Shown here: piece by piece, positions 1 to 13,274 of the stretch
Layout of the letters: every line of letters starts with the position of its first letter
How positions within the stretch are numbered: position 1 is the stretch's first letter
Assembly (NCBI GenBank): GCA_030447385.1
Contig: JAUJOY010000002.1
Location: forward strand, 514,081-578,080
Length of the DNA stretch: 64,000 nt
Source: Mycobacteriales bacterium
GTDB taxonomy: Bacteria > Actinomycetota > Actinomycetes > Mycobacteriales > SCTD01
Reading direction: 5' to 3'
Notes under the pieces: generated by a model
What the model saw: the letters and a program-made list of their open reading frames with translations, nothing else
What the model was told of the DNA's origin: nothing
Databases searched by the model: none
Program-made: the position numbers and the translations under genes

Positions 1-136
1 GGGCCAGGTGCAGCATGACGGCGCTGTCCTTGCCGACCGAGTAGAGCATCACCGGGTGCTCGCTCTCGGCGACGGCCTCCCGGAAGATGCGGATGCTGTC
101 CGCCTCCAGGCGCTGGAGGTGGGTCAACGTCGTCAT
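1..136 (-). CDS. cysD: Sulfate adenylyltransferase subunit 2, 5' end only
   Basis: The small subunit of ATP sulfurylase makes adenosine 5'-phosphosulfate from sulfate and ATP in assimilatory sulfate reduction, working with the GTPase CysN. Only the first 45 codons are in the window; the gene runs off the left edge. The start [17 protein letters not shown] is the usual CysD N-terminus. Residues 29-45 contain [13 protein letters not shown], the SGGKDS-like PP-loop that binds ATP pyrophosphate. The ATG at 134-136 overlaps the stop of a 29-codon upstream frame in an ATGA arrangement. Identity is clear despite the truncation. cysN would be expected further left but cannot be seen. Confidence 0.93.
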
Positions 137-222
137 GCTCGGGTGCACCTCAGGGCGTCGGCGAGATCCTGCTCTAGGTTAGGCCAGTCTCCCGCGAGGA
201 CCGGGGCACGAAGGGACCTCAT
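133..222 (-). CDS. Possible 29-aa leader peptide coupled to cysD
   Basis: This is a short frame on the cysD strand that starts with ATG at 220-222. Its TGA overlaps the cysD ATG (ATGA). The peptide ends in ALRCTRA, so a cysteine codon lies four codons before the stop, reminiscent of the Cys-containing leader peptides found before sulfur genes in actinobacteria. Against it: there is no good Shine-Dalgarno, and its first bases overlap the start of the divergent flavin reductase. It may be only an open stretch of the cysD leader. Confidence 0.25.
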
Positions 223-733
223 GGATGCCACCCCGACGCCGGGGCACATGCGCCGGGTGCTCGGGTCGTTCGCCAGCGGTGTCGTCATCGTCACCGGCAA
301 CGACGACGGCCGCCCTGTGGGCTTCACCTGCCAGTCCTTCGCCTCGGTCTCGCTCGACCCGCCCCTGGTGCTGTTCTGCCCCGCGCACACCTCGCGCTCC
401 TGGCCGCGGATCCGGGCCTCGGGCCGGTTCGCGGTCAACGTCCTTGCCGCCGACCAGCACCAGACCTGCCTGCGCTTCGCCGTGAGCGGGGCCGACAAGT
501 TCGCCGGCGTCGACTGGGAGCCGACGCCGTGGGGACCCACCCTGTCCGGCGCGCTCGCGACGGTCCTGTGCTCGCTGGAGCACGTGCACCCGGGCGGGGA
601 CCACGACATCGTGCTCGGCCGGGTCCAGCAGCTGGCGACCCACCGGGACGACGCGGCGCTGCTGTTCTTCCGGGGCGGCTACGAGCGGGCGCCCTGCGAC
701 GCCCAGGCGGACACCTCGCTGGCTGCTCCCTGA
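221..733 (+). CDS. Flavin reductase-like FMN-binding protein
   Basis: A 170-aa protein of the flavin reductase / FMN-binding split-barrel family. Members reduce free FMN or FAD with NAD(P)H, often to feed a two-component monooxygenase. The N-terminal LGSFASGVVIVT block, the GFTCQSFASVSLDPPLVLFC segment and the GRFAVNVLA segment are the family's flavin-binding core. ATG 221 was chosen because GAAGGGA sits just upstream and the protein then has family length. It diverges from cysD, and the start codons nearly touch, so the two may share a control region. A sulfur-related monooxygenase partner would fit but none is adjacent. The substrate is unknown. Confidence 0.88.
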   Translation: MDATPTPGHMRRVLGSFASGVVIVTGNDDGRPVGFTCQSFASVSLDPPLVLFCPAHTSRSWPRIRASGRFAVNVLAADQHQTCLRFAVSGADKFAGVDWEPTPWGPTLSGALATVLCSLEHVHPGGDHDIVLGRVQQLATHRDDAALLFFRGGYERAPCDAQADTSLAAP

Positions 734-774
734 CGGCTGCGTAGGATTCGCCTGCGGGCGGGTCCTCCGGCCGA

Positions 775-870
775 GGAGGCGTACGTGTTCCTGGTGGGCA
801 CCCCGGTCTTCAACACCGGTGAGCGGCGGTATCCGTCGCTGGCGGGTTCGATTCCCGTCCGCCTCCGCCA
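775..870 (+). tRNA. selC: tRNA-Sec (anticodon TCA), CCA encoded
   Basis: A 96-nt selenocysteine tRNA that decodes UGA with SelB. The acceptor GGAGGCG (775-781) pairs with CGCCTCC (860-866), followed by discriminator G and an encoded CCA. The anticodon arm CCGGT-CTTCAAC-ACCGG carries TCA. The variable arm is very long, an 8-bp stem AGCGGCGG/CCGTCGCT with a TAT loop, as expected for tRNA-Sec. The T arm contains GGTTCGATTCC. selA and selB follow downstream, which supports the call. Its 3' 26 bp are duplicated at 2293-2318, showing use as an integration site; the tRNA itself is intact. Confidence 0.96.
843..868 (+). repeat. Left attachment site (attL), tRNA-Sec 3' end
   Basis: The 26-bp block, with GGTTCGATTCCCGTCCGCCT at its centre, lies wholly in the T arm and acceptor stem of tRNA-Sec. 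It is identical to 2293-2318. Location in a tRNA 3' end and proximity to the integrase remnant identify it as an att core. Confidence 0.85.
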
Positions 871-923
871 TCGTCCCCTGCGTTCGTGCAGGTCACAGGC
901 TCGAGCCGCCCCTGGACGGGGCA

Positions 924-951
924 AAAGCCCGTCAAAGCCCGAAGATCATCT
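924..951 (+). repeat. Paired AAAGCCCG repeat, left copy (arm-type site candidate)
   Basis: AAAGCCCG occurs at 924-931 and again at 934-941, 10 bp apart, followed by AAGATCATCT. The same 28-bp unit with two mismatches recurs at 2124-2151, exactly 1200 bp away and inside the other end of the element. Direct repeats one helical turn apart near both ends of an integrase element suggest arm-type integrase or excisionase binding sites; this is inference. Confidence 0.6.
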
Positions 952-1040
952 CGGCGGGACGGTGCGCTCGGGCGAGAAGCGGTCAGCTACGAGCAGGCGC
1001 GGTGTGTGTGCGCGCACAGTCCTGGCTTCGAGCCAAGCGT

Positions 1041-1439
1041 TCAGGCGCCGCGAGGCCACAGCGGTACGACGCGTCGCTCGGCGGCGTCGGTCGGGGCGGT
1101 GCGGAAGCGCTCTCGCCACATTGAGTAGTCGTCGTCCGGCCGCAGGTGTACGTAGACCCGGTCAGTCACGGCCACAGAAGCGTGCCCCAGCCAGCGGCTG
1201 ATCACGGCAAGCGGGATGCCGGCCTCGAACCAGAGCGACGCGCAGGTGTGACGCAAGTCGTGGAACCTCACGCCGGTCCTGGCGGCGTCGGGAAGACCCG
1301 CTCGCTTGAGCGCTGGCTTGAGATAGCGCCGGGCGAAGTTGTCGGCGTCGAAGGGCTTGTCGGGGTCGAAGCTGTGGCCGCCTCCATGCTCCCTCACCCG
1401 CGACAGTGGGGGGGAGGTTGGGTCGTCGGCACCCCCAAG
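1041..1439 (-). pseudogene. Tyrosine recombinase (integrase), C-terminal remnant
   Basis: The frame encodes the catalytic part of a phage-type integrase. FHDLRHTCASL supplies the HxxR motif, WLGHASVAVTDRVYVH supplies the second His and the nucleophile Tyr, and a short tail follows. Only about 118 codons follow the first in-frame GTG (1395-1397). The N-terminal arm-binding and core-binding domains and the first catalytic Arg are absent, so this cannot be a complete integrase. The frame is closed upstream by TGA at 1440-1442 but stays in register with two further open segments up to 1832. It lies about 170 bp inside attL and points to the tRNA, as expected for an int gene. Confidence 0.82.
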
Positions 1440-1535
1440 TCAAAGCGGTCCCGCCCCGAACATCGGGTGGGCGCGAACCACGTCTTCAGACACCACCTGG
1501 ACGAGCTCGCCCAGGAGTCCGTCGTCCAGAGGCAT
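1440..1535 (-). CDS. Possible 31-aa peptide inside the element
   Basis: A short frame starting MPLDDGLLGELVQVVSED and ending at TGA 1440-1442. Its composition is protein-like. A TTG at 1542-1544 would lengthen it by three codons. It is in the same frame as the small gene upstream (1560-1832) and the integrase remnant downstream, separated from each only by a TGA. It could be a piece of one broken gene, or a chance open stretch. Confidence 0.25.
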   Translation of the reverse strand: MPLDDGLLGELVQVVSEDVVRAHPMFGAGPL

Positions 1536-1559
1536 CGGCGGCAAAGCATGCGTTCTGGC

Positions 1560-1832
1560 TCAGCGACAGACCTCGTAGGCGTAGGCCAGGAGCCCGTCCA
1601 AGTCCGACGTCTCGATTTTGACGAGAACGTCGGCTACGGCCGCAGGGTTGGCGAGGTCGATCGGCGCAGGGAGCCGCATGTTGCGACCTGCAGCGGTGGG
1701 CTCGGCGGACGGGAGGTCCGTCGTGCTCTTCATGATCATGTTGCTCCGCCGCTCAGCCACAACGGCTGGGGTCAACGCCGAAGCGCCGACGGTGGCGGCC
1801 GCAGTGCGGGCGATGTTCGGCGGTGATGTCAC
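1560..1832 (-). CDS. Small protein of unknown function carried by the element
   Basis: A 90-aa frame starting with GTG at 1830-1832. A perfect AGGAGG (1837-1842) lies four bases upstream, which is the main reason to believe it is translated. The N-terminal half is Ala/Thr/Ser-rich. The C-terminal part, around PAAVADVLVKIETSDLDGLL, looks like a short helical domain. I do not recognise a family. Position next to an integrase remnant suggests an excisionase-like or regulatory role, but no winged-helix signature is obvious. Its TGA stop is in frame with further open sequence leading to the integrase remnant. Confidence 0.45.
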   Translation of the reverse strand: MTSPPNIARTAAATVGASALTPAVVAERRSNMIMKSTTDLPSAEPTAAGRNMRLPAPIDLANPAAVADVLVKIETSDLDGLLAYAYEVCR

Positions 1833-1842
1833 GGGACCTCCT

Positions 1843-2292
1843 GACGCGCACACGACTGTGGGCGTCACCGGCGGTCCGGAGCGACGCGACGACCCTACAC
1901 CACTAGCAGGTACCTGAGTGCAGGGGGGCTGGCTGGGACGGACAGATCCGGACGACCGGAAGCTCAGGTCGCGGCGCCCGAATCGGCCGATCCGCCTGGT
2001 TCTGGGGGTGGTCGAGCAGCAAGAAGCCGGCACCTGCCGGGAGAAGCGGCGGTGGCTGGTCGTCAGGCGCGTTGGATCTGCACTGAGCCGGCGTCTCGTG
2101 AGCTCACCGGTCTCGGCTCATCGAAAGCCCGGAAAAGCCCGAAGATCATCTTTCGGCTTGTGGTTACGCCCGGTCAGGTACGGTCAACTGTGGCTCGATA
2201 CAGAAATCTGTTCGTGCAGGTCACGCGGTACAAAGTGGGGTTCGGGGACTTGGACCTCCAGGTCACCGCGGGTGATGACTCTGCGCCCGTGA
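1843..2292. other. Non-coding interior of the element
   Basis: Apart from the 28-bp repeat at 2124-2151 I see no gene here. The open frames on both strands have unnatural composition and no ribosome binding site. The stretch CGATACAGAAATCTG is locally less GC-rich than the surroundings, consistent with foreign DNA. Confidence 0.5.
2124..2151 (+). repeat. Paired AAAGCCCG repeat, right copy
   Basis: AAAGCCCG at 2124-2131 and 2134-2141, followed by AAGATCATCT. It matches 924-951 at 26 of 28 positions. It lies 142 bp inside the right attachment site. Confidence 0.6.
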
Positions 2293-2318
2293 CGGGTTCG
2301 ATTCCCGTCCGCCTCCGC
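2293..2318 (+). repeat. Right attachment site (attR), duplicated tRNA-Sec 3' end
   Basis: Exact copy of 843-868. No acceptor 5' strand, anticodon arm or variable arm precedes it, so it is not a second tRNA gene but the displaced end of the target left by integration. The next base after the repeat is T where the tRNA has the CA of CCA. Confidence 0.85.
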
Positions 2319-2419
2319 TCCGACCGCCGCCGGCTGCCCCGCTGAGCGGCGTCCCGGTCGATCCGCGCACGTGGCGCAGAGCGGCCTTCGCGCTGTTCGC
2401 CGTCGCCGCCGGCACCAAC

Positions 2420-3511
2420 GTGCCGACGCCGCTGCTGCTGGTCTACCGGGACACGCTCGACCTCAGCCCCCAGGTGCTGACGGCGGTCTTCGGCGTGTAC
2501 GCGGCCGGGCTCGTGCCGGCGCTGTTCCTCGCCGGCCCGCTCTCGGACCGGCTCGGCCGGCGCCGCGTGGTCCTGCCGCTGATCGTGCTGGCTGCGCTCA
2601 CCTCGCTGCTGCTCATCGCAGCGGCCTCCTCCCTGCCGCTGCTGTTCCTCGGCCGCTTCCTGCAGGGCGCGGTCAGTGGCGGGGTGTTCAGCGTCGGGAG
2701 CGCCTGGGTCGCGGAGCTGTCCGCCGCGGCGGGCGTCGGCGCCGCCGGCCGGCGGGCAGCCGTGGCCATGACCGCCGGCTTCTCGCTGGGGCCGTTGACC
2801 TCCGCGCTCCTGGCCGAGTACGTCCCCTGGCCGACGACCCTGCCCTACCTCGTCCACGTGGTCCTCGTCGCCGCCGGGCTGGCCGCCGCTCACCCCCTTC
2901 CCGAGACGGTTCCTGGGCGGGTCGAGCACGCGACGCCGAGAGGGCCGCTGGTGCTCCAGGCCGACCGGACGACCCTGCTCACCGTGCTCGCGCCGCTGGC
3001 CGTCTGCGTCTACGCCTTCCCGTCGGTGGTCATCGCGGCGGTCCCGCTGCTGGTGGAGACCTCCGCGCCGCCGGTGCTGCTGACGGGCGTGCTGGCCGGG
3101 CTCACACTGGGCGCAGGAGCCCTCGCCGCGCCGCTGCAGCGCCGGCTCGGCCGGTGGAGCGCGGTCACGGCGGTCGGGCTGGGCGCGCTGGGGTACGCCC
3201 TGGCGACCCTGGGCGCCGGCGCCGGCTCACCGCCGGTCCTGCTGGCCGCTGCGCTGCTGCTCGGCTCCGGTGGCGGGCTCTCGCTGTCCGCCGGGCTGGG
3301 GCTCACCGCGCGCCTGGCCCAGCCCGAGCGCAGGGGGGCGCTGTCCGCGGTGTTCCTGGGCTGCGCCTACGTCGGCTTCAGCGCTCCCTACCTGACGGCG
3401 GTGGCAGCGGAGCTTTCCCGCGTGCAGGTGCCACTGGCCTGCGCCACCGGCCTCGCGGCGCTGCTGGCCCTGCGGCTCGTGGTCGCGACGCGAAAGGGCC
3501 AGGCGCAGTAG
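2420..3511 (+). CDS. MFS transporter, N-terminal start uncertain
   Basis: A major facilitator superfamily permease of 363 aa from GTG 2420. It has about a dozen hydrophobic segments and the signature loop GPLSDRLGRRRVV between TM2 and TM3. The substrate cannot be told; the family includes drug exporters and YbfB-like permeases. The frame stays open upstream, and codons 2372-2419 encode a natural TM1 start (WRRAAFALFAVAAGTNVP). The true protein therefore probably begins near 2342, where the only plausible initiator in frame is CTG. No ATG, GTG or TTG exists in frame between the att repeat and 2420. The element's insertion may have removed the original start or leader. selA follows 19 bp downstream. 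Confidence 0.8.
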   Translation: MPTPLLLVYRDTLDLSPQVLTAVFGVYAAGLVPALFLAGPLSDRLGRRRVVLPLIVLAALTSLLLIAAASSLPLLFLGRFLQGAVSGGVFSVGSAWVAELSAAAGVGAAGRRAAVAMTAGFSLGPLTSALLAEYVPWPTTLPYLVHVVLVAAGLAAAHPLPETVPGRVEHATPRGPLVLQADRTTLLTVLAPLAVCVYAFPSVVIAAVPLLVETSAPPVLLTGVLAGLTLGAGALAAPLQRRLGRWSAVTAVGLGALGYALATLGAGAGSPPVLLAAALLLGSGGGLSLSAGLGLTARLAQPERRGALSAVFLGCAYVGFSAPYLTAVAAELSRVQVPLACATGLAALLALRLVVATRKGQAQ

Positions 3512-3530
3512 CCGCGGGTACCTTTCGCGC

Positions 3531-4823
3531 GTGACCGCCGACGACCCCCGCAGGCGGGTCCCGCGTACGGACGTGGTGCTCGCCGACCCGCGACTGGCCT
3601 CCGCCGGCGAGCACCTCGGCCCCGAGCTCGTGAAGGGCGCCGTGCTGGCGGCGCAGGCCCGCGCCCGCGCCGGGGAGATCCCCCCGGAGGCGGTCGCCGA
3701 CGAGGCCGTGGCCGCGCTCCCGCGGGCGGCCACCACCCTGCGCTCGGTGCTCAACGCGACCGGCGTCGTCCTGCACACCAACCTCGGCCGGGCAGCGCTG
3801 TCCGCGGCAGCGGTCGACGCGCTGGCCACGGCGGCGTCCTACGTCGACGTGGAGTTCGACGTGAGGGACGGGTCCCGGGCGCGCCGCGGACGGGGGGCCC
3901 TGACGGCGCTGCGCGAGGCGACGCCGGATGCCGAGGACGTGCTGGTCGTCAACAACGGCGCCGCGGCGCTGGTCCTGGCGACCACTGCCCTCGCCGCCGA
4001 TCGCGAGGTCGTCGTCAGTCGCGGCGAGATGGTGGAGATCGGGGACGGCTTCCGCCTGCCGGACCTCATCGAGAGCACCGGCGCGCGCCTGCGGGAGGTG
4101 GGCACGACCAACCGGACCCACCTGCGCGACTACGCCGGGGCGATCGGCGAGCAGACGGGCTGCGTGCTCAAGGTGCACCCCAGCAACTTCCGCGTCGAGG
4201 GCTTTCACAGCGAGGTGGGCGTACGCGAGCTGGCCGGCCTCGGCGTGCCCGTCGTCGCCGACGTCGGCAGCGGTCTGCTCGCCCCGCACCCGCTGCTGCC
4301 CGACGAGCCGGACGCGCGGACGGCGCTGCGCGCGGGAGCCGCCCTCGTCACGGCTAGCGGCGACAAGCTGCTCGGCGGCCCGCAGGCCGGCCTGCTGCTC
4401 GGCCGTCACGACGTCGTGGAGCGGCTCCGGCGCCACCCGCTGGCCCGCGCGCTGCGGGTCGACAAGCTCACCCTCGCCGCTCTCGAGGCGACCCTGCGCG
4501 GCCCCCGGACCCCCACCTGGCAGGCGCTGCTCGCCGAGGACGACCGCATGCGGGCCCGGTGCGAGCGGCTGGCGGCCGAGGTCCGCGGCGAGGTCGTGCC
4601 CAGCAACGGCGCGGTCGGTGGAGGCGGGGCGCCCGGCATGCTGCTGCCCGGCTGGGCGGTGGCGCTGCCGGCGGCCTACCTGCCGGCCCTGCGCCTCGGG
4701 GACCCCTGCGTGGTGGGGCGGATCGAGAAGGACCGCTGCCTGCTCGACCTGCGGTGCATCCCCGAGCAGGACGACCAGCGCCTGGCGCAGGCCGTGCTCG
4801 CCGTGGGACGCGCGGGGCACTGA
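3531..4823 (+). CDS. selA: L-seryl-tRNA(Sec) selenium transferase
   Basis: SelA is a PLP enzyme that converts Ser-tRNA(Sec) to Sec-tRNA(Sec) with selenophosphate. The 430-aa length is close to E. coli SelA. The PLP lysine lies in [16 protein letters not shown] at about residue 279, and the cofactor-site segments [11 protein letters not shown] and VKVHPSNF-like ([12 protein letters not shown]) are present. The N-terminal domain that recognises the long tRNA-Sec arm is intact. The start is GTG 3531. selB follows 3 bp after the stop, so the two are co-transcribed. The cognate tRNA-Sec lies 2.7 kb upstream across the integrated element. No selD is in the window. Confidence 0.96.
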
Positions 4824-4826
4824 GGC

Positions 4827-6593
4827 ATGCACGTCATCGCCACCGCCGGCCACGTGGACCACGGCAAGAGCACCCTCGTCCGCGCGCTCACCGGCATGGA
4901 GCCCGACCGGTGGGCGGAGGAGCGCCGGCGCGGGATGACCATCGACCTGGGCTTCGCCTGGACGCCGCTGCCCTCCGGCCGGGTGCTCGGGTTCGTCGAC
5001 GTGCCCGGCCATCAGCGTTTCATCGGCAACATGCTCGCGGGCCTCGGGCCGGCACCGGCGGTGCTCGTGGTGGTCGCCGCCGACGAGGGCTGGCGCCGGC
5101 AGTCCGGTGAGCACCTCGCGGCCGTGGACGCGCTGGGGCTGACGTCCGGCCTGCTCGCCGTGACCCGCAGCGACCTCGCCGATCCGGGGCCGGCCACGCA
5201 GCAGGCACTCGAGCAGCTGCGGGCGTCCAGCCTCGGCGATGTCGAGGCGGTGGCGGTCTCCGCCGTGACCGGCAACGGGCTCGAGGACCTGCGCGCCGCG
5301 CTGGACCGGCTCGTGGCGGGACTGCCGGCCGCGGTGGAGGACGGACCCGTGCGGCTGTGGGTCGACCGGGCCTTCACGGTCCGCGGCAGCGGCACCGTCG
5401 TGACCGGGACGCTCGGAGCGGGGACCCTGCGCACCGGCGACGAGCTGGAGCTGTCCGGTGGCGGCGTGCGGGTCCGTGGCCTGCACAGCCTCGGCGCGCC
5501 CTACGACGAGGTCCGTGCCATCGCGCGGGTCGCGGTCAACCTGCGGGGGACCGAGCGCCACGAGGTCGAGCGCGGGGACGCGCTGCTGACGCCAGGAGCC
5601 TGGCGTGCCGTGCACGCCGTCGACGCCCGCCTGTCGGTCGACCCGCGCAACCTGCCCGCCGAGCTGCTCCTGCACGTGGGGTCGACCAGCGTCGCGGTGC
5701 GCCTGCGCCCGCTCGGCCCGGACACCGCCCGCCTCGTGCTCCACCGGCCCCTGCCGCTGCGGGCCGGCGATCGGGCACTCCTGCGCGACCCGGGCCGCCA
5801 GTCGGTGGCCGGCGGCGTCCTCCTGCTGGACGTCGACCCGCCCGGGCTCGGCCGACGGGGCGCCGCCGCCGCGCGAGCCGCCAGCCTCGCCGGCGCCGGG
5901 GCCGTACCCGACCTGGTGGCCGAGGTGACCCGCCGCGGCGCCGCCCGCCGCTCCGAGCTCGAGACGCTCGGCATCACCACCGACCCGGCCGCGGACCTGG
6001 TGGTCTCGGGGGAGTGGCTGGTGTCCCCGGCTCTGTGGGCCCGCTGGGTGTCGTTGCTGCAGGCTGCCGTCGACGCGCACGTCGCGGCCGCCCCGCTCGA
6101 AGGGGGGCTGCCGCACGAGGCGGCCCGGCACGCGGTCGGCCTGCCGGACGCCCGGCTGCTCGCGCCGGTGGGAGCCGCCGCCGGGCTCGAGTCGGTGACC
6201 GGGCGGCTGCGGCGCAGGGGCGCGGTGACCTCTCTCGGGCCGGCAGAGGCGGCGGTCGCCGAGGTGGAGCGCCGGCTGGCGGCCGACCCCATGGATGCCC
6301 CCGACAACCCGGAGCTGGCGGCGCTCGGCCTCGGGCCGCGTGAGCTCGCGGCGGCCGAGCGGGCCGGGCGACTGCTGCGCCTGCGGGACGACGTGGTGCT
6401 GCTCCCGGACGGTCCGGCCCGGGCGATGCGGCTGCTCGCGAGGATCCCGCAGCCGTTCACGCTCAGCCAGGCGCGGACGGCGCTCGGGACGACCCGTCGG
6501 GTGGCCGTACCGCTGCTCGAGCACCTCGACACCCGTGGCTGGACGCGGCGCCTCGACGGGATGCTCCGGGAGGTGCGCAGGGCGTCGGGATAG
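4827..6593 (+). CDS. selB: Selenocysteine-specific elongation factor
   Basis: SelB is a GTPase that brings Sec-tRNA(Sec) to UGA codons by binding a SECIS hairpin in the mRNA. The G1 motif GHVDHGKST is at residues 8-16, the switch I-like [13 protein letters not shown] at about 35-47, and DVPGH at about 58-62. Domain II contains [14 protein letters not shown]. The C-terminal third holds the winged-helix repeats that bind SECIS. At 588 aa it is slightly shorter than the E. coli protein. With selA and selC it gives a complete decoding set except selenophosphate synthetase. No selenoprotein gene is recognisable nearby, so the clients (formate dehydrogenase is the usual one) lie elsewhere. Confidence 0.96.
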
Positions 6594-6632
6594 CGTCCGC
6601 AGCACGAGGTGGGCTCCGTCGAGAGGACCGTC

Positions 6633-7733
6633 ATGCCGCAGGAGGTACGCGCCGTCGTCGCCCTCGCCAAGGGGGAGCCGGTGACCGTCACGACCATCGT
6701 CGTCCCCGACCCCGGACCGGGTGAGGTGGTCGTGCGGGTCCAGGCCTGCGGGGTCTGCCACACCGACCTGCACTACCGCGAGGGCGGCATCAGCGCCGAC
6801 TTCCCCTTCCTGCTCGGCCACGAGGCGGCCGGCCTCGTGGAGACCCTCGGCGAAGGGGTGACGCACGTCGAGGTCGGCGACTTCGTCATCCTCAACTGGC
6901 GGGCGGTCTGCGGCCGGTGCCGCGCGTGCCGCCGCGGCCGTCCCTGGTACTGCTTCTCGACCTTCAACGCGGCCCAGAAGATGACGCTGCAGGACGGGAC
7001 GGCCCTGTCGCCGGCGCTGGGGATCGGGGCCTTCGCCGAGAAGACCCTTGTGCACGAGGGGCAGTGCACCAAGGTCGACCCCACGGCCGATCCGGCGGCT
7101 GCCGGCCTGGTCGGGTGCGGGGTCATGGCCGGGTGGGGCGCCGCCGTCAACACCGCCCCCGTGACGGCTGGTGACACGGTCGCCGTGATCGGCTGCGGAG
7201 GGGTGGGCGACGCCGCGATCGCAGGTGCGGTCTTCGCCGGCGCCCGGCAGGTCATCGCGGTCGACATGGACGACCGCAAGCTCACGTGGGCGAGGGAGTT
7301 CGGCGCGACCGACACGGTCAACGCGCAGACCGAGGAGGTCGTCGCCCGGTTGCGCGAGCTGACCGGCGGCGTCGGTCCGGACGTCGTGATCGACGCGGTC
7401 GGGAGCCCGCAGACCTTCCGGCAGGCCTTCGACGCCCGCGACCTCGCCGGGACCGCGGTCCTCGTGGGCGTGCCCAGCCCCACCGCGGCGTTCGAGGTGC
7501 CGCTGATCGAGGTGTTCGGGCACGGGGGGCAGGTCAAGAGCTCGTGGTACGGCGACTGCCTTCCCGAGCGCGACTTCCCCCTGCTCGTCGACCTGTGGCA
7601 GCAGGGCCGCTTCGCCCTGGACCGCTTCGTCTCCGAGCGCATCGCGCTCGACGGAGTGGAGGGGGCCTTCGACAAGATGCACGAGGGCGGCGTGCTGCGC
7701 AGCGTCGTCGTGCTGGACCGGGCGGGATCGTGA
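6633..7733 (+). CDS. mscR: S-(hydroxymethyl)mycothiol dehydrogenase
   Basis: A zinc-dependent medium-chain dehydrogenase that oxidises the formaldehyde-mycothiol adduct with NAD+; the same family also reduces S-nitrosomycothiol. ATG 6633 has GAGAGG upstream and gives 366 aa. Catalytic zinc ligands are Cys42 (ACGVCHTDL) and His63-Glu64 (GHEAAG). The structural zinc site is [15 protein letters not shown] at about 93-107. The Rossmann motif is GCGGVGDAA. Whole segments such as [21 protein letters not shown]-like and [10 protein letters not shown] match the mycobacterial enzyme as I remember it. It overlaps the next gene by GTGA, a pairing conserved in mycobacteria. mshC for mycothiol synthesis is in this same window. 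Confidence 0.93.
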
Positions 7734-8362
7734 CCGGCGCGAGGATCGAGCACCTGGTCACCCGTGGGACGTTCAGCCTCGACGGCGAGACCTTCGACGT
7801 CGACAACAACGTGTGGCTGGTCGGCGACGACGACGAGGTCCTCGTGCTCGACGCGCCGCACGACCCGGACGCGATCGAGGCTGCGGTCGGTGACCGCACG
7901 GTCGTCGCCATCGCCTGCACGCACGCCCATGACGACCACGTCCGCTACGCGCCCGAGCTGGGGGAGCGAGTCAGTGCACCGGTCCTGCTGCACCCCGACG
8001 ACCGGGTGCTGTGGGACCTCACGCACGGCCGGCACGAGCCGGACGGGGCGCTGCGCGAGGGCCAGGTGCTCGAGGTCGCCGGCCTGCGGGTGCACGTGCT
8101 GCACACCCCGGGGCACGCCCCCGGCGCGGTCTGCTTCTTCGTGCCCGACCTGGGGGCGGTGTTCACCGGCGACACGCTGTTCGCCGGCGGTCCCGGCGCG
8201 ACCGGCCGCAGCTACAGCGACTACCCGACCATCCTCGAGTCGATCCGCAGCCGGCTGCTCACCCTCCCGCCGGAGACCCGGGTGCTGACCGGCCACGGGG
8301 ACGAGACGTCGGTGCGCGCCGAGGCCCCGTCCTTCGACGAGTGGGTGAGCAGGCAGGCCTGA
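7730..8362 (+). CDS. Metallo-beta-lactamase-fold hydrolase linked to mscR
   Basis: A 210-aa MBL-fold protein. The metal-binding motif is CTHAHDDHV (HxHxDH), followed by [12 protein letters not shown] and [10 protein letters not shown] with later metal ligands, as in glyoxalase II-like hydrolases. It is translationally coupled to mscR (GTGA overlap). The established pairing suggests it hydrolyses the S-formylmycothiol produced by MscR, releasing formate and mycothiol. That role is inference from context; glyoxalase II-type substrates are the alternative. Confidence 0.85.
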
Positions 8363-8366
8363 CGGG

Positions 8367-9740
8367 CTACACCCCCGCGAGCTGCCCGCGCGAGGGCCGC
8401 AGGTAGACCGTCCAGGTGAGCGCGAAGCACACGCCGTAGAAGGCCAGGAAGGCGATGTACGCGGCGTTGCCCGCGCCGGTCTCCAGGAAGCTCTGCCGGA
8501 AGGCGACGTTCACGAGCACACCGCCGAACGCGCCGACAGCTCCGGCGATCCCGATCAGGGCCCCGGACAGCCGCCGGGCTTCTCGGTCGGACCCGACGCG
8601 GTCGGCCCCGGCGACGATGAGCTTGGCGGACTTCGCCCGGAAGACCGCCGGGATCATCTTGTAGGTCGAGCCGTTGCCGATCCCGGAGAAGACGAACAGT
8701 GCCGTGAAGCCGACGACGAACATCGGCAACGACGCCTGCAGCGACGCGACGAGCACGACCGCAGCGCCACAGGCCATGGCCACGAAGTTCCAGAAGGTGA
8801 CCCGGGCGCCGCCCCACTTGTCGGCCATCATCCCGCCCACCGGGCGGATCAGCGAGCCCAGCAGCGGCCCGAGGAACGTCAGGTAGGCCGCGTCCAGCGG
8901 CGTGGGGAAGTCGGCCTGGAACTGCACCTGCAGCACCTGGCCGAAGGCGAAACCGAACCCGATGAACGAGCCGAAGGTGCCGATGTAGAGGAACGACATC
9001 ACCCAGGTGTGCGGGTCGCGGCAGACGTCGCGCATCGCCCGCTTGTCGTTCTTCGCCGAGGTGAGGTTGTCCATGTTGCGCAGCGCGAGCCATGCCGCGC
9101 CGAGCACCAGCGGGATGTACGCGCCGATCAGCAGTCGCGGGTGGGCGGCGCCCGCGGTGGCGAGCACCAGCAGCGCGGCCAGCTGGACCATCGGGACGCC
9201 GAGGTTGCCGCCGCCTGCGTTCAGGCCGAGCGCCCGTCCCTTGAGCCGGTCGGGGTAGAAGGCGTTGATGTTGGCCATGGAGGAGGCGAAGTTGCCACCG
9301 CCGACACCGGCAACCGCCGAGACCACGAGCAGCGTCGACAGCGAGACCCCCGGCTCCACGACGAACAGCGCGAACACCAGTGGAGCCAGCAGCATCAGCG
9401 CGCTGAACACCGTCCAGTTCCGGCCGCCGAACTTGGCGACGGCGAAGGTGTAGGGCAGGCGCAGCGTGGAGCCGACCAGGGCCGGCACGATCGTGAGCAG
9501 GAACTTGTCCTCCGGCGCGAAGCCGTAGGCCGGCCCGAGGAACAGCACCAGCACCGACCACATCGTCCACACCGAGAAGCCGATGTGCTCGGACAGGATC
9601 GAGAAGATCAGGTTGCGGCGGGCAACCCGGTCGCCGCCCGCGGCCCAGAACTGCTCGTCCTCGGGGCGCCAGTCCTCGATCCACCGCTCCCGCGGAGCAG
9701 GTGTCGTCGTCGAGCCCGTGGTGCCGATCAGCGTGGTCAT
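8367..9740 (-). CDS. narK: NarK-family nitrate/nitrite transporter
   Basis: An MFS permease of 457 aa for nitrate uptake and/or nitrite export. The N-terminus contains WIEDWRPEDEQFW, typical of actinobacterial NarK proteins. Nitrate-signature-like glycine-rich segments are AGVGGGNFASSMANINAFYP and a later GNGSTYKMIP. Around 12 TM segments are evident. ATG 9740 was chosen because GGAGG lies about ten bases upstream; a longer frame to 9776 lacks one. It converges on the MBL gene with a 4-bp gap. Together with the HemD/regulator gene to its right it recalls the mycobacterial narK3-Rv0260c pair. Confidence 0.92.
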   Translation of the reverse strand: MTTLIGTTGSTTTPAPRERWIEDWRPEDEQFWAAGGDRVARRNLIFSILSEHIGFSVWTMWSVLVLFLGPAYGFAPEDKFLLTIVPALVGSTLRLPYTFAVAKFGGRNWTVFSALMLLAPLVFALFVVEPGVSLSTLLVVSAVAGVGGGNFASSMANINAFYPDRLKGRALGLNAGGGNLGVPMVQLAALLVLATAGAAHPRLLIGAYIPLVLGAAWLALRNMDNLTSAKNDKRAMRDVCRDPHTWVMSFLYIGTFGSFIGFGFAFGQVLQVQFQADFPTPLDAAYLTFLGPLLGSLIRPVGGMMADKWGGARVTFWNFVAMACGAAVVLVASLQASLPMFVVGFTALFVFSGIGNGSTYKMIPAVFRAKSAKLIVAGADRVGSDREARRLSGALIGIAGAVGAFGGVLVNVAFRQSFLETGAGNAAYIAFLAFYGVCFALTWTVYLRPSRGQLAGV

Positions 9741-9785
9741 GGGTCGGGTTCCTCCAGTGCGGGGGGGGGTGTGCACCGGACGCTA

Positions 9786-9810
9786 GGAACGCCTGTTCCG
9801 CCGACGTCGC
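9786..9810. promoter_or_regulatory. Upstream region of narK: small palindrome and half GlnR-like site
   Basis: GGAACGCCTGTTCC (9786-9799) is a perfect 5-bp inverted repeat with a 4-base spacer. On the narK strand 9795-9810 reads GCGAC-n6-GGAAC, a single a/b pair resembling half a GlnR box. The match is weak, but nitrate transporter genes are typical GlnR targets. Confidence 0.25.
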
Positions 9811-9870
9811 CGCGCCGAGGACGGGAGGTCACCTTCTGCTCACACCCATAAAGGGGACGCCGTGCGGGGA

Positions 9871-10989
9871 TCAGGAGTCGGCCGCGGCCAGCCGGTAGCC
9901 GCGCTTGACGACGGTCTGCACGACCCCCCCGGCGGGTCCGAGCGCCGTGCGCAGCCGGGCGACTGTCATCTCGACAGCGTGCTCGTCGGCCACCTCGTCG
10001 CGCCACGCCACCCGCAGGAGCTCAGGTCGCGACAGGACGCGCCCGCTGCAGTTCACCAAGGCCGCCAGCACCCCGGTCTGGCGTGAGGTCAGCTCCACCG
10101 GGTGCCCGTCCACGAGCACGCTGTGGCCGCGCAGCTCGAGCCGGTGCCCAGCGGCGTCGACGCGCTTCGTGCGCCGGGCGGGCAGCTCCTCCACCACGCA
10201 GCGCACCAGGGCACCGAGCCTGGCCCGCTGTGGCTGCACCGTGGGGATGCCGCGGAGCTCGAACGCCGCAGCTGTCACCGGACCTACGCACGCCGCGACG
10301 ACGTCATCGGCGAAGGCACGCAGCAGCAGGGTCTCTCGTCCCTCCTGGCGGGCGGTCGAGAGCAGGCTCGCCACGGCGGGCGCGCTCGTGAACGTGACGC
10401 AGTCGACCTGCCCGCCGGCGATCTGCTCCACGAGCCGGCGCAGCGGGCGGACGTCCTCGGGCGGCACCCAGCGGTAGACCGGGATCTCGACGACGTCGGC
10501 GCCGGCGGCCCGCAGGGCCGCCGTCAGCTCGGTCAGCGGGTCGCCGTGCAGCTGAATCGCGACCCTGCGCCCGTCCACGCCCTCGGCGAGCAGCCGCGCG
10601 AGCACCTCGTCACTCGACTCGCTTCCGGGCGACCACGACTCGGCGAGCCCGGCAGCGCGTACCGCCCCCTTCGCCTTCGGGCCTCTGGTCAGCAGCTCGG
10701 AGGCGGCGAAGCAGGAGCGCAGCGGCTCACCGAGCCCCCAGCCGTCAGCCGCCTCCATCCACCCGCGGAAGCCGATCCCGGTGGTGGCCACCACCACGTC
10801 CGGCGGGTGCGCCACGCACGCCCTCGTGGCCGCCAGCAGCTGCTCGTCGTCCTGGGTGGGGACGATGCGCAGAGCCGCTGCCTCCACCACGCGCGCCCCC
10901 CGCCGGGAGAGCAGCGCAGTGAGCTCCTCCCGCCGGCGGGCAGCCGTGACGGCGACGGTGAACCCGGTGAGGGGCTCCAGGTCCGGCAC
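9871..10989 (-). CDS. Uroporphyrinogen-III synthase-like / winged-helix regulator fusion
   Basis: A two-domain protein of 372 aa. Residues 1 to about 235 are a HemD fold, with segments such as VVVATTGIGFRGWMEAADGW, VAIQLHGDP and VDCVTFTSAPAVASLL. About 270-370 is an OmpR/PhoB-type winged helix with LTSRQTGVLAALV and VVQTVVKRGYRL. GTG 10987-10989 has AGGAG seven bases upstream; a longer frame to TTG 11067 is possible. The mycobacterial homologue next to narK3 has the same architecture. It may both serve siroheme synthesis for NirB and regulate, or be a HemD-derived sensor. It is divergent from the nitrate reductase operon. The true enzyme activity is untested. Confidence 0.88.
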   Translation of the reverse strand: MPDLEPLTGFTVAVTAARRREELTALLSRRGARVVEAAALRIVPTQDDEQLLAATRACVAHPPDVVVATTGIGFRGWMEAADGWGLGEPLRSCFAASELLTRGPKAKGAVRAAGLAESWSPGSESSDEVLARLLAEGVDGRRVAIQLHGDPLTELTAALRAAGADVVEIPVYRWVPPEDVRPLRRLVEQIAGGQVDCVTFTSAPAVASLLSTARQEGRETLLLRAFADDVVAACVGPVTAAAFELRGIPTVQPQRARLGALVRCVVEELPARRTKRVDAAGHRLELRGHSVLVDGHPVELTSRQTGVLAALVNCSGRVLSRPELLRVAWRDEVADEHAVEMTVARLRTALGPAGGVVQTVVKRGYRLAAADS

Positions 10990-11117
10990 GGGCGAGCTCC
11001 TCTCGGTGTCAGGAGGACGAGCGGATGCCGACACTGTGGCGGGCTCAGGTTGCCGTCCTGTTTCCAAGACGTGTCTGCCGTAACCGCACAGCGGAAGGAC
11101 GGCCCCATGAGGACCAC

Positions 11118-11155
11118 GTCACGTCCCCGGAACATGGCGGACACCACTACGGCAC
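11118..11155 (+). promoter_or_regulatory. GlnR-like operator upstream of the nitrate reductase operon
   Basis: Four pentamers, each separated by exactly 6 bp, read GTCAC, GGAAC, GACAC, GGCAC. The actinobacterial GlnR consensus is gTnAC-n6-GaAAC repeated, so all four sites keep the G..AC frame and spacing. It lies about 60-100 bp before the nitrate reductase start in the divergent region. Nitrogen-limitation control by GlnR is the expected behaviour of this pathway. The assignment is by pattern only. Confidence 0.6.
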
Positions 11156-11216
11156 GAGGTGCCCGCACCGTGTAGCCGTGCCCACGACGCTGCTCCCTCC
11201 GCCGAGGGACCCCGCC

Positions 11217-13274
11217 GTGCAGACGCGCTGCCCGTACTGCGCACTGCAGTGCGCGATGACCCTCACGCCGGCCGGTGCCGGCGCCGTGGTGGAGGCCGGC
11301 GACGGGGGGCTGTGCCGCAAGGGCTGGACGTCGGCCGCACTGCTGGACTCGCCGAGGCGCCTGACGCATCCGTGGGTGCGTGACGGCCGGCACGGGCGGC
11401 TGCGGGAGGCGACGTGGGACGAGGCGCTCGACCGGGTTGCCGACGGCTTTCGCCGTGCGCAGGACAGCGGCGGGTACGACGCGGTCGGCGTCTTCGGGGG
11501 CGGCGGCCTGACGAACGAGAAGGCCTACCTGCTGGGCAAGTTCGCCCGGGTGGCGCTGCGCAGCAGCTCGATCGACTACAACGGTCGCTTCTGCATGAGC
11601 TCGGCGACCGCCGGCGCGCTGCGGGCATTCGGCCTCGACCGCGGGATGCCCTTCCCGCTGGTGGACCTCGACGACGCGGGCTGCATCCTGCTGGTCGGCA
11701 GCAACCTCGCCGAGACGATGCCACCGGTGATGCAGCGCCTCGTACGGCAGCGGGAGAACGGCGGCACGCTGATCGTCGTCGACCCGCGACGCACGCCCAC
11801 CGCCGACGCGGCCACCCTGCACCTGCAGGTGCAGCCCGGCACGGACCTGGCTCTTGCCAACGGCCTGCTGTTCCTCGCGATCGAGCTGGGCCACGTCGAC
11901 GAGGCCTACATCGCCGCGCGCACGACCGGGTGGGGGGACGTTCGCCGCGCGGTCAGCGCGTCGTGGCCGGCGCAGGTGGAACGCGCCACGGGGGTCAGCG
12001 AGCCCGACCTGCGCAGGGCCGTCCAGCTCCTGGCGGCGGCCGACCGCGCGATGGTCCTGACCGCCCGCGGGGCGGAGCAGCACGCGCACGGTGTGGACAC
12101 GGTGTCGGCGTTCGTCAACCTGGCGCTGGCGCTCGGCCTGCCGGGCCGCCCGGGTGCGGGCTGGGGGTGCCTGACCGGTCAGGGCAACGGCCAGGGCGGA
12201 CGGGAGCACGGGCAGCGGGCCGACCAGCTGCCGGGCTACCGCAGGCTCGACGACCCCGCCGCGCGCGCGCACGTCGCCGCCGTGTGGGGGATCGACCCCG
12301 ACGACCTGCCGGCACCGGGACGCTCGGCCTACGAGCTGCTCGAGGCGCTCGGCTCGGGTGGGGGCCCGCGCGCACTGCTGCTGATGGGGAGCAACCCCGT
12401 CGTGAGCGCGCCGCGCGCCGCGCACGTGCAGTCCCGGCTCGCCTCGCTGGACCTCCTGGTCGTCGCCGACGTGGTGCTGTCCGAGACGGCGGCGATGGCC
12501 GACGTCGTCCTGCCGGTCGCGCAGTGGGCCGAGGAGGACGGCACCACGACCGACCTGCAGGGTCGCGTGCTGCTGCGCCGCCGGGCGCTGGACCCGCCGC
12601 CGGGGGTGCGGACCGACCTGCACGTCCTCGCAGGACTCGCGCAGCGGCTCGGCTGCACAGCGACCTTCCCCGTGGAGCCACGCGAGGTCTTCGACGAGCT
12701 CCGGCTCGCCAGCTCGGGCGGGCCGGCCGACTACGCCGGCATCAGCTACGACCGGCTGGCTGCGGGGGAGGCCCTGCACTGGCCGTGCCCGCTGGAGAGC
12801 TCGCCGGGAACGCCGCGCCTCTTCCTCGAGCGCTTCGCCACGCCGGACGGCCGGGCCCGGTTCGTCGCCGTGTCGCAGCCCCCGTCGGCCGAGCCGGTCG
12901 ACGAGGACTTCCCCCTGCTGCTGACCACCGGCCGGGTGGCGGCGCACTACCAGAGCGGGGCGCAGACCCGGCGCATCGACGAGCTGTCCGGCGACGCTCC
13001 CGCAGCCTTCGTGGAGCTGCATCCCTTCCTCGCCGAGCGGCTGGACGTCGCGGACGGCGAACGCGTCCGGGTCAGCACCCGCCGCGGCGAGGCGTTCGTG
13101 CGTACGCGCGTGAGCTCCGACATCCGGCCGGACACCGTGTTCGTGCCCTTCCACTGGGCCGGCCGGCAGCGCGCCAACCTGCTCACGAGCGACGCGCTGG
13201 ACCCCACCTCGAAGATGCCGGCATTCAAGGTCTGCGCGGCCCGCATCGACCGGCTCGAGGAGGCGCTGCGATGA
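11217..13274 (+). CDS. nasA: Assimilatory nitrate reductase, molybdopterin catalytic subunit
   Basis: A molybdopterin oxidoreductase of about 685 aa that reduces nitrate to nitrite in the cytoplasm. The N-terminal [4Fe-4S] motif is CPYCALQC at residues 5-12, with the fourth Cys in GLCRKGW. Mo-bis-MGD-binding segments include SAWPAQVE-like, MLMGSNPVV-like (LLMGSNPVVSAPRAA) and the C-terminal molydop-binding domain with TGRVAAHYQSG and PFHWAGRQRANLLTSDALDP. There is no Tat signal, as expected for Nas/NarB. GTG 11217 has GAGGGA upstream; GTG 11178 is an alternative. The next gene overlaps by ATGA and supplies its electron-transfer partner. moaA for the cofactor ends the operon. Confidence 0.94.
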   Translation: MQTRCPYCALQCAMTLTPAGAGAVVEAGDGGLCRKGWTSAALLDSPRRLTHPWVRDGRHGRLREATWDEALDRVADGFRRAQDSGGYDAVGVFGGGGLTNEKAYLLGKFARVALRSSSIDYNGRFCMSSATAGALRAFGLDRGMPFPLVDLDDAGCILLVGSNLAETMPPVMQRLVRQRENGGTLIVVDPRRTPTADAATLHLQVQPGTDLALANGLLFLAIELGHVDEAYIAARTTGWGDVRRAVSASWPAQVERATGVSEPDLRRAVQLLAAADRAMVLTARGAEQHAHGVDTVSAFVNLALALGLPGRPGAGWGCLTGQGNGQGGREHGQRADQLPGYRRLDDPAARAHVAAVWGIDPDDLPAPGRSAYELLEALGSGGGPRALLLMGSNPVVSAPRAAHVQSRLASLDLLVVADVVLSETAAMADVVLPVAQWAEEDGTTTDLQGRVLLRRRALDPPPGVRTDLHVLAGLAQRLGCTATFPVEPREVFDELRLASSGGPADYAGISYDRLAAGEALHWPCPLESSPGTPRLFLERFATPDGRARFVAVSQPPSAEPVDEDFPLLLTTGRVAAHYQSGAQTRRIDELSGDAPAAFVELHPFLAERLDVADGERVRVSTRRGEAFVRTRVSSDIRPDTVFVPFHWAGRQRANLLTSDALDPTSKMPAFKVCAARIDRLEEALR

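Follow-up and report, generated by a model that had tools for sequence, protein, structure and literature searches.

The selenocysteine tRNA gene (selC) in the stretch of DNA analysed here, a 64-kb region referred to as the window, very probably carries at its 3' end a decayed mobile element, of which a CIME-like relic is left. The original prediction was of an integrative element remnant that uses this gene as its attachment site, and it has stood up well: the site is empty in a relative of the same genus (G008), the distal copy of the repeat is no full tRNA, and the same core is found in larger elements.

The tRNA-Sec gene, with the anticodon TCA, is located on the plus strand at 775-870, where it is called by ARAGORN and by the Rfam model RF01852, scoring 72.2 bits against a cut-off of 47. 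Its 3' end forms attL. The final 26 bases of the gene ahead of the terminal CA (843-868, plus strand), which extend from the T-arm to the discriminator plus one C, are repeated exactly at 2293-2318 on the same strand, and the duplication is therefore as perfect as had been proposed. The core repeat grows to 29 bp with one mismatch (840-868 and 2290-2318). A 25-mer of the core, searched with up to three mismatches, occurs in the 64-kb window only at these two copies and has no match in 100 shuffles. The distal copy is attR, the displaced 3' end of selC and not a tRNA gene. Such a copy could in principle have belonged to a second complete tRNA-Sec gene, as the original prediction allowed, and a single tRNA-Sec is recognized both by ARAGORN in the whole window and by Rfam at gathering scores in positions 1-12000.

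The gene at 775-870 is the one restored by the element. The flank at attR, which represents the original 3' end, reads CCTCCGC-TCC and has no CCA, and the restored gene at attL reads CCTCCGC-CA. Among seven relatives of the same genus, the tRNA-Sec gene has an encoded CCA in G004 only, and it is lacking in G001, G002, G005, G006, G007, and G008. Since CCA is missing both from the attR flank and from most of the relatives, the element appears to be its source, and integration, as read from these sequences, appears to have provided the tRNA-Sec gene with an encoded CCA end.

A further comparison comes from the empty site, which is a criterion of tDNA-integrated elements and was expected in a sister genome. 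The search for tRNA-Sec covered 150 genomes, with 20 flanks fetched from 19 of them, and seven of eight same-genus genomes gave a match of at least 69 bits, with G003 at best at 49.8. The expected arrangement is found in G008, in which tRNA-Sec is followed by 35 bp, MFS homology, and selA, without any repeat. When window positions 701-868 are joined to 2319-2700, a single alignment with G008 runs across the junction with 415/511 identities and 28 gap columns, most of which fall in the short tRNA-MFS stretch; the window left unjoined breaks into pieces at the repeat.

The host genes on both sides are conserved in the same relative. Upstream of selC is a flavin-reductase-like gene (221-733, plus strand; PF01613, E 3e-41), whose homologue is also upstream of selC in G008 (68% over residues 1-154). 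The next host gene at the empty site encodes an MFS transporter (2321-3511, plus strand, with an approximate start; PF07690, E 4.3e-36), and its homologue directly after selC in G008 is 80% identical. It is followed on the same strand by selA (3531-4823) and selB (4827-6593), both of which are named from homology and gene order. Homologues of selA follow selC in G005, G008, G013, G019, and G028, and selA is annotated downstream of tRNA-Sec in L198 and L199. The tRNA gene of G005 is separated from MFS-selA-selB by 335 bp with a small ORF, and that of G013, from another genus, by 1.2 kb of other genes. Neither MFS, selA, nor selB is found downstream of selC within 9.6 kb in G004 or within 5.1 kb in G007, and the sequences of G001, G002, and G006, which stop 943, 1074, and 48 bp past selC, have no bearing on the layout. 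The ancestral layout is thus drawn from two same-genus genomes (G005 and G008) together with G013. The element was also said to split selC from selAB; it does separate selC from MFS-selAB, but in the relatives with an empty site selC and selA are already parted by the MFS gene.

The enclosed DNA retains part of a tyrosine integrase gene. An ORF for 118 amino acids on the minus strand (1041-1397), whose 3' end is directed toward the tRNA, corresponds to the C-terminal part of an integrase and matches PF00589 at E 1.7e-11 and phrog_1 (PHROG) at E 1.2e-19. Its best named homologues are from Blastococcus and Cryobacterium, which, like the GC content, is in keeping with an actinobacterial host. A profile of our own, built from 40 of 102 related integrases, also matches it, and gives a significant match in the segment only at profile positions 326-403 of 420, on the minus strand. 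In the translation, the C-terminal catalytic motif HxxR, H/W, Y is represented by HDLRH, by LGH, and by the tyrosine of YVHL. The first catalytic arginine and the N-terminal arm-binding and core-binding domains are absent, the profile match being confined to positions 326-403 of 420. Judged by the profile, the integrase has lost its N-terminal three quarters, so that the element should not move by itself.

Next to the remnant, on the opposite strand (1401-1454, plus), is a scrap that resembles the integrase stretch expected ahead of the remnant, with 12/17 identity to residues 244-260 of the L092 integrase. Its score is equalled by 0/300 shuffles and 0/600 window peptides, for a stretch that was picked after a whole-segment search with 102 integrase queries and that the profile search scores at only E 0.014. 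Remnant and scrap alike are matched best by L092-L094. An in-frame stretch on the minus strand, at about 1443-1557, was also considered as a piece of integrase and was rejected, as its best score against the 102 integrases was reached by 113/300 shuffles and 475/600 window peptides. The integrase gene has probably been rearranged near 1398, as the strand switch suggests, in addition to its truncation. The proposed remnant faces the tRNA as described and is truncated, and the opposite-strand scrap points to a rearrangement that the description did not include.

The two core copies enclose 1,424 bp, giving an element span of 1.45 kb, and the GC content of the enclosed segment is 67.1% versus 74.1% for the window. 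Apart from the integrase fragment, no transfer, replication, or phage genes are recognized within it. A small ORF on the minus strand (1560-1832), which forms part of a 157-aa ORF and would encode 90 amino acids if the GTG after AGGAGG is the start, is possible cargo; it has no Pfam family at E 0.01, and its C-terminal part has no PHROG match. Ten further ORFs of the segment are likewise without a Pfam family at E 0.01. Matches to the segment elsewhere in 24 genomes of the family are all short, at most 97 bp. Just ahead of the small ORF is a 48-bp leader (1838-1885) with counterparts on contig C9 of the same genome (83% identity) and in G003 (81% identity), and both of these counterparts precede ORFs that, by eye, resemble STAS-domain proteins. 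It may represent a promoter or leader in common with host-type genes. Because the leader of the small ORF resembles those of host genes, part of the segment need not derive from the element.

Inside each end of the segment are two arm-like repeats, all on the plus strand. Repeat B is an exact 15-mer pair, GTTCGTGCAGGTCAC (TGACCTGC on the integrase strand), found on the left at 882-896 and on the right at 2210-2224. Repeat A (924-951 on the left and 2124-2151 on the right) consists of two AAAGCCCG units 10 bp apart and then AAGATCATCT, and its 28-bp copies are 93% identical and share the exact 18-mer AAAGCCCGAAGATCATCT. Exact repeats longer than 15 were absent from 1000 first-order Markov random sequences of matching length, and a repeat of 15 appeared in two of them. 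An exact match to the bipartite pattern of A occurs only three times in 397 genomes of the order, at the two ends here and at one site in G011, a member of the same family but of another genus. In G011 the pattern ends about 25 bp ahead of a displaced selC 3'-end copy; it is present at the attR side only, and the right repeat A of the window matches it over 28 bp at 96%, beside the displaced selC fragment. Four one-mismatch hits to A were not counted, as they represent one unrelated-looking sequence that is identical in four genomes of genus g14. The A motif has no match in viral contigs.

On the integrase strand, repeat B contains TGACCTGC. Among 68 integrase-tRNA junctions in the fetched loci, TGACCTGC is found in either orientation in 11, against 0.92 expected from the background rate, with the junctions having been chosen by geometry (an integrase 3' end facing a tRNA was the selection filter) and not being independent, as several pair a single integrase with neighbouring tRNAs in turn and three are from this genome. 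It is missing from 57/68, and a permuted control motif is found in 0/68. In 10 of the 11 motif-bearing junctions its distance to the tRNA end is 14-28 nt, and for the left copy in the window this distance is 25 nt. Repeats A and B are putative arm-type sites for the integrase and/or an excisionase, as their sequence and placement suggest. As a separate observation, three more integrase homologues of the same geometry occur in this genome (L005, L007, and L008), adjoining tRNA-Ser, tRNA-Gly, and tRNA-Arg, and each has TGACCTGC 17-26 nt from the tRNA end.

The selC 3'-end pattern is present in 169/397 genomes of the order, and a reading of the table gives five genomes with two matches: this genome, G011, G020, G017, and G099. 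In G017 and G099 the second match is accounted for by complete tRNA genes on separate contigs. At selC, G011 has the same core and a segment of 2.1 kb, which contains a ribbon-helix-helix-like gene (below the Pfam cut-off) and DUF433; no integrase was detected in it. Arm A, the core, and GCCCGTG ahead of the core are common to this segment and that of the window, which have no 12-mers in common beyond arm A and the core. G020 has a displaced selC fragment on another contig, and G016 has a selC fragment without an ARAGORN call that scores 48.4 bits in Rfam, just above the cut-off of 47. The copies in G020 and G016 are longer and begin at the anticodon loop, and therefore a different sub-site was used.

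The suggestion that larger islands with the same 26-bp core might exist is confirmed by IMG/VR, in which the selC 3'-end pattern matches two contigs. In the first, 3300033168_000020 (38,590 bp), tRNA-Sec and the 26-bp core lie close to opposite ends, with selA beyond the core, and the contig contains genes for a 384-aa integrase, RecT, an exonuclease, and a methyltransferase; by its gene content and layout it is read as a selC-integrated prophage of about 37.8 kb. In the second, 3300028485_000003 (66,246 bp), the core lies beside a 417-aa integrase, no tRNA gene is found in the 11.1 kb examined, and the core may be regarded as attP-like. Both have a core identical to that of the window; their integrases, however, start beside the core and point away from it, opposite to the arrangement in the window, and are only distant relatives, matching 42-72 residues of the fragment at 41-50%. 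A search with the 3' end of the tRNA found matches in 9 plasmid records and 468 phage records. The three of the 9 plasmid records that were examined are not attP sites: their tRNA-Sec genes are complete and belong to plasmid-borne sets of sel genes. One of the 468 phage records, that of Curtobacterium phage Yappy, has a 22 bp match, with no integrase annotated within the 6 kb examined. A Chloroflexi MAG (L139) with an integrase near tRNA-Sec was also rejected, there being no second core copy in the DNA examined. No intact selC element with this integrase was found in the sequences searched.

Among known systems, the top-listed phage integrase for the fragment is IntM of the Micromonospora phage pMLP1 (51.4% over residues 20-93 of the fragment by tblastn). 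The 3' end of its gene adjoins attP, just as the remnant faces the tRNA; pMLP1, however, is an intact phage, whereas the window has a remnant only. The term CIME is applied in PMC5704250 to elements that have kept attL and attR and have lost their integration and transfer genes. The relic in the window conforms to this, as it retains both attachment sites without a working integrase. Decay products in Streptomyces include, in PMC9513070, a partial integrase plus cargo between two direct repeats. The window segment differs from CIMEs and DAICEs in that no conjugation or replication gene is recognized in it, and descent from an ICE/AICE therefore cannot be distinguished from descent from a prophage.

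Enterobacterial islands use selC too, and the original prediction held that use of this gene is best known from them. The rarity that this implied is weakened by the Pf-tRNA-Sec filamentous prophages of Pseudomonas aeruginosa, which are described as having tRNA-Sec as attB with a 27-bp site (PMC7549136). That site lies over the same 3' part of the tRNA as the core in the window; it belongs to a host of another phylum and to another phage type, whereas the window has a remnant with a 26-bp core. Among the listed matches in the open-access literature, no paper on selC integration in actinobacteria was found, nor, in the parts of that literature at hand, one on such integration in Streptomyces, and selenocysteine is not mentioned in the accessible parts of PMC3218068, on actinobacterial ICEs, or of PMC9513070. 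Relics of this type in tDNAs are thus already known; the tRNA gene is a less usual one here, and the selC site is used more than once among related bacteria and phages.

The Islander software (PMC4383910) relies on the signature of a tDNA plus a fragment of it, distinguishes the sub-sites A and J/T, and sets a minimum of 2 kb. The window shows this signature, with an intact tRNA, a displaced 3' fragment in the same orientation, and the element between them, and has only a C-terminal integrase fragment inside. At 1.45 kb the element falls short of the 2-200 kb length range, of which the 2-kb floor is a software limit and not a biological one, and Islander would therefore filter it out. The case shows what island-finding software with such a lower limit would miss.

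With no mobile element at all, the repeat could have arisen by simple duplication of a host segment holding the 3' end of the tRNA, or as an assembly artefact, and the absence of any intact integrase or other mobile gene would be in keeping with either. Such an origin is scarcely credible, given the integrase fragment, the arm repeats, the drop in GC, the empty site, the identical core in phages, and the position of the segment inside one contig of 708,889 bp. It is considerably more plausible, if still unlikely, that at least two successive insertions accreted at selC and were later collapsed by deletion, which would explain both the opposite integrase pieces and the presence of two arm repeats. 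The inverted scrap at 1401-1454 and the other, longer selC 3' fragments of G020 and G016, from the anticodon loop, are consistent with such a history; the scrap, however, matches the stretch that immediately precedes the remnant on its N-terminal side in this same family of integrases, so that one rearranged gene is simpler, and no third core copy is found inside the segment.

The segment may instead be a small non-autonomous element that has kept its mobility, being excised and moved in trans, in the manner of a satellite or CIME, by the integrase of another selC-specific element, with the G011 segment as its sibling. The full att/arm arrangement at both ends would suit such an element, as would the G011 segment, which has the same arm motif and the shared GCCCGTG ahead of the core but no detected integrase. 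We consider this distinctly improbable, as the two segments have no 12-mers in common except in arm A and the core, no second copy beyond short matches is found in 24 family genomes, no cognate integrase was found, and the broken integrase suggests the decay of a larger element.

The preferred reading remains that of a decayed mobile element at selC. A mobile element encoding a pMLP1/actinophage-type tyrosine integrase, whose gene has its 3' end facing attP, would have entered the 3' end of selC, its attP holding a copy of the terminal portion of that gene. With strand exchange in the T-arm or immediately after it, the tRNA gene would have been left whole at attL and its original 3' end displaced to attR, which now lies 1.45 kb away. 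The tandem AAAGCCCG and the TGACCTGC repeats inside each end may have acted as sites for the N-terminal domain of the integrase and/or for an excisionase. Later deletion and rearrangement would then have reduced the element to about 1.4 kb, and the losses would include the N-terminal three quarters of the integrase together with the region of its first catalytic arginine. The relic would keep both att sites and would be fixed unless an integrase of the same specificity acts in trans.

A broader proposal is that selC is a recurrent integration hotspot in this actinobacterial family and its phages, used by at least three integrase lineages at T-arm and anticodon-loop sub-sites, of which two integrase types are observed directly at selC and that of the anticodon-loop users is not among them; that the short AAAGCCCG-arm elements of the window and G011, with a broken or missing integrase, are maintained there and moved in trans; and that integration can switch the tRNA-Sec gene between forms with and without an encoded CCA. 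Taken as a whole, this is improbable. The present case adds an actinobacterial-looking use of selC that has both an empty-site control and candidate att arm sites. The identical 26-bp core, used by phages with another integrase arrangement, suggests an attB/attP pair for actinobacterial integration tools, and the swapped tRNA-Sec 3' end with its apparent gain of CCA offers a natural test of any effect of such a swap on selenocysteine incorporation.

Several other tRNA-Sec genes were observed along the way. Complete tRNA-Sec genes are found on Tsukamurella and Arthrobacter plasmids of the L198-L200 set, together with selA, selB, selD, and formate dehydrogenase genes, and the Arthrobacter plasmid is typed as conjugative; a linear plasmid of Streptomyces anthocyanicus from the same set has tRNA-Sec with selD-selA-selB. 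G017 has identical tRNA-Sec genes on two contigs (L051, 12786-12881, minus strand; L052, 1052-1147, plus strand), each followed by selB, and the pair represents either a real duplication or mixed strains in the assembly. The use of UAG for selenocysteine has been reported in some actinobacteria. G099 has two genes of tRNA-Sec type on separate contigs (L189, 9333-9428, and L190, 1169-1263, both minus strand), one with a TCA anticodon and the other, a tRNA-Sec-like gene directly before selA-selB, with a CTA anticodon that leads ARAGORN to call it tRNA-Pyl; from its anticodon and position, the latter is likely to serve UAG-read selenocysteine.
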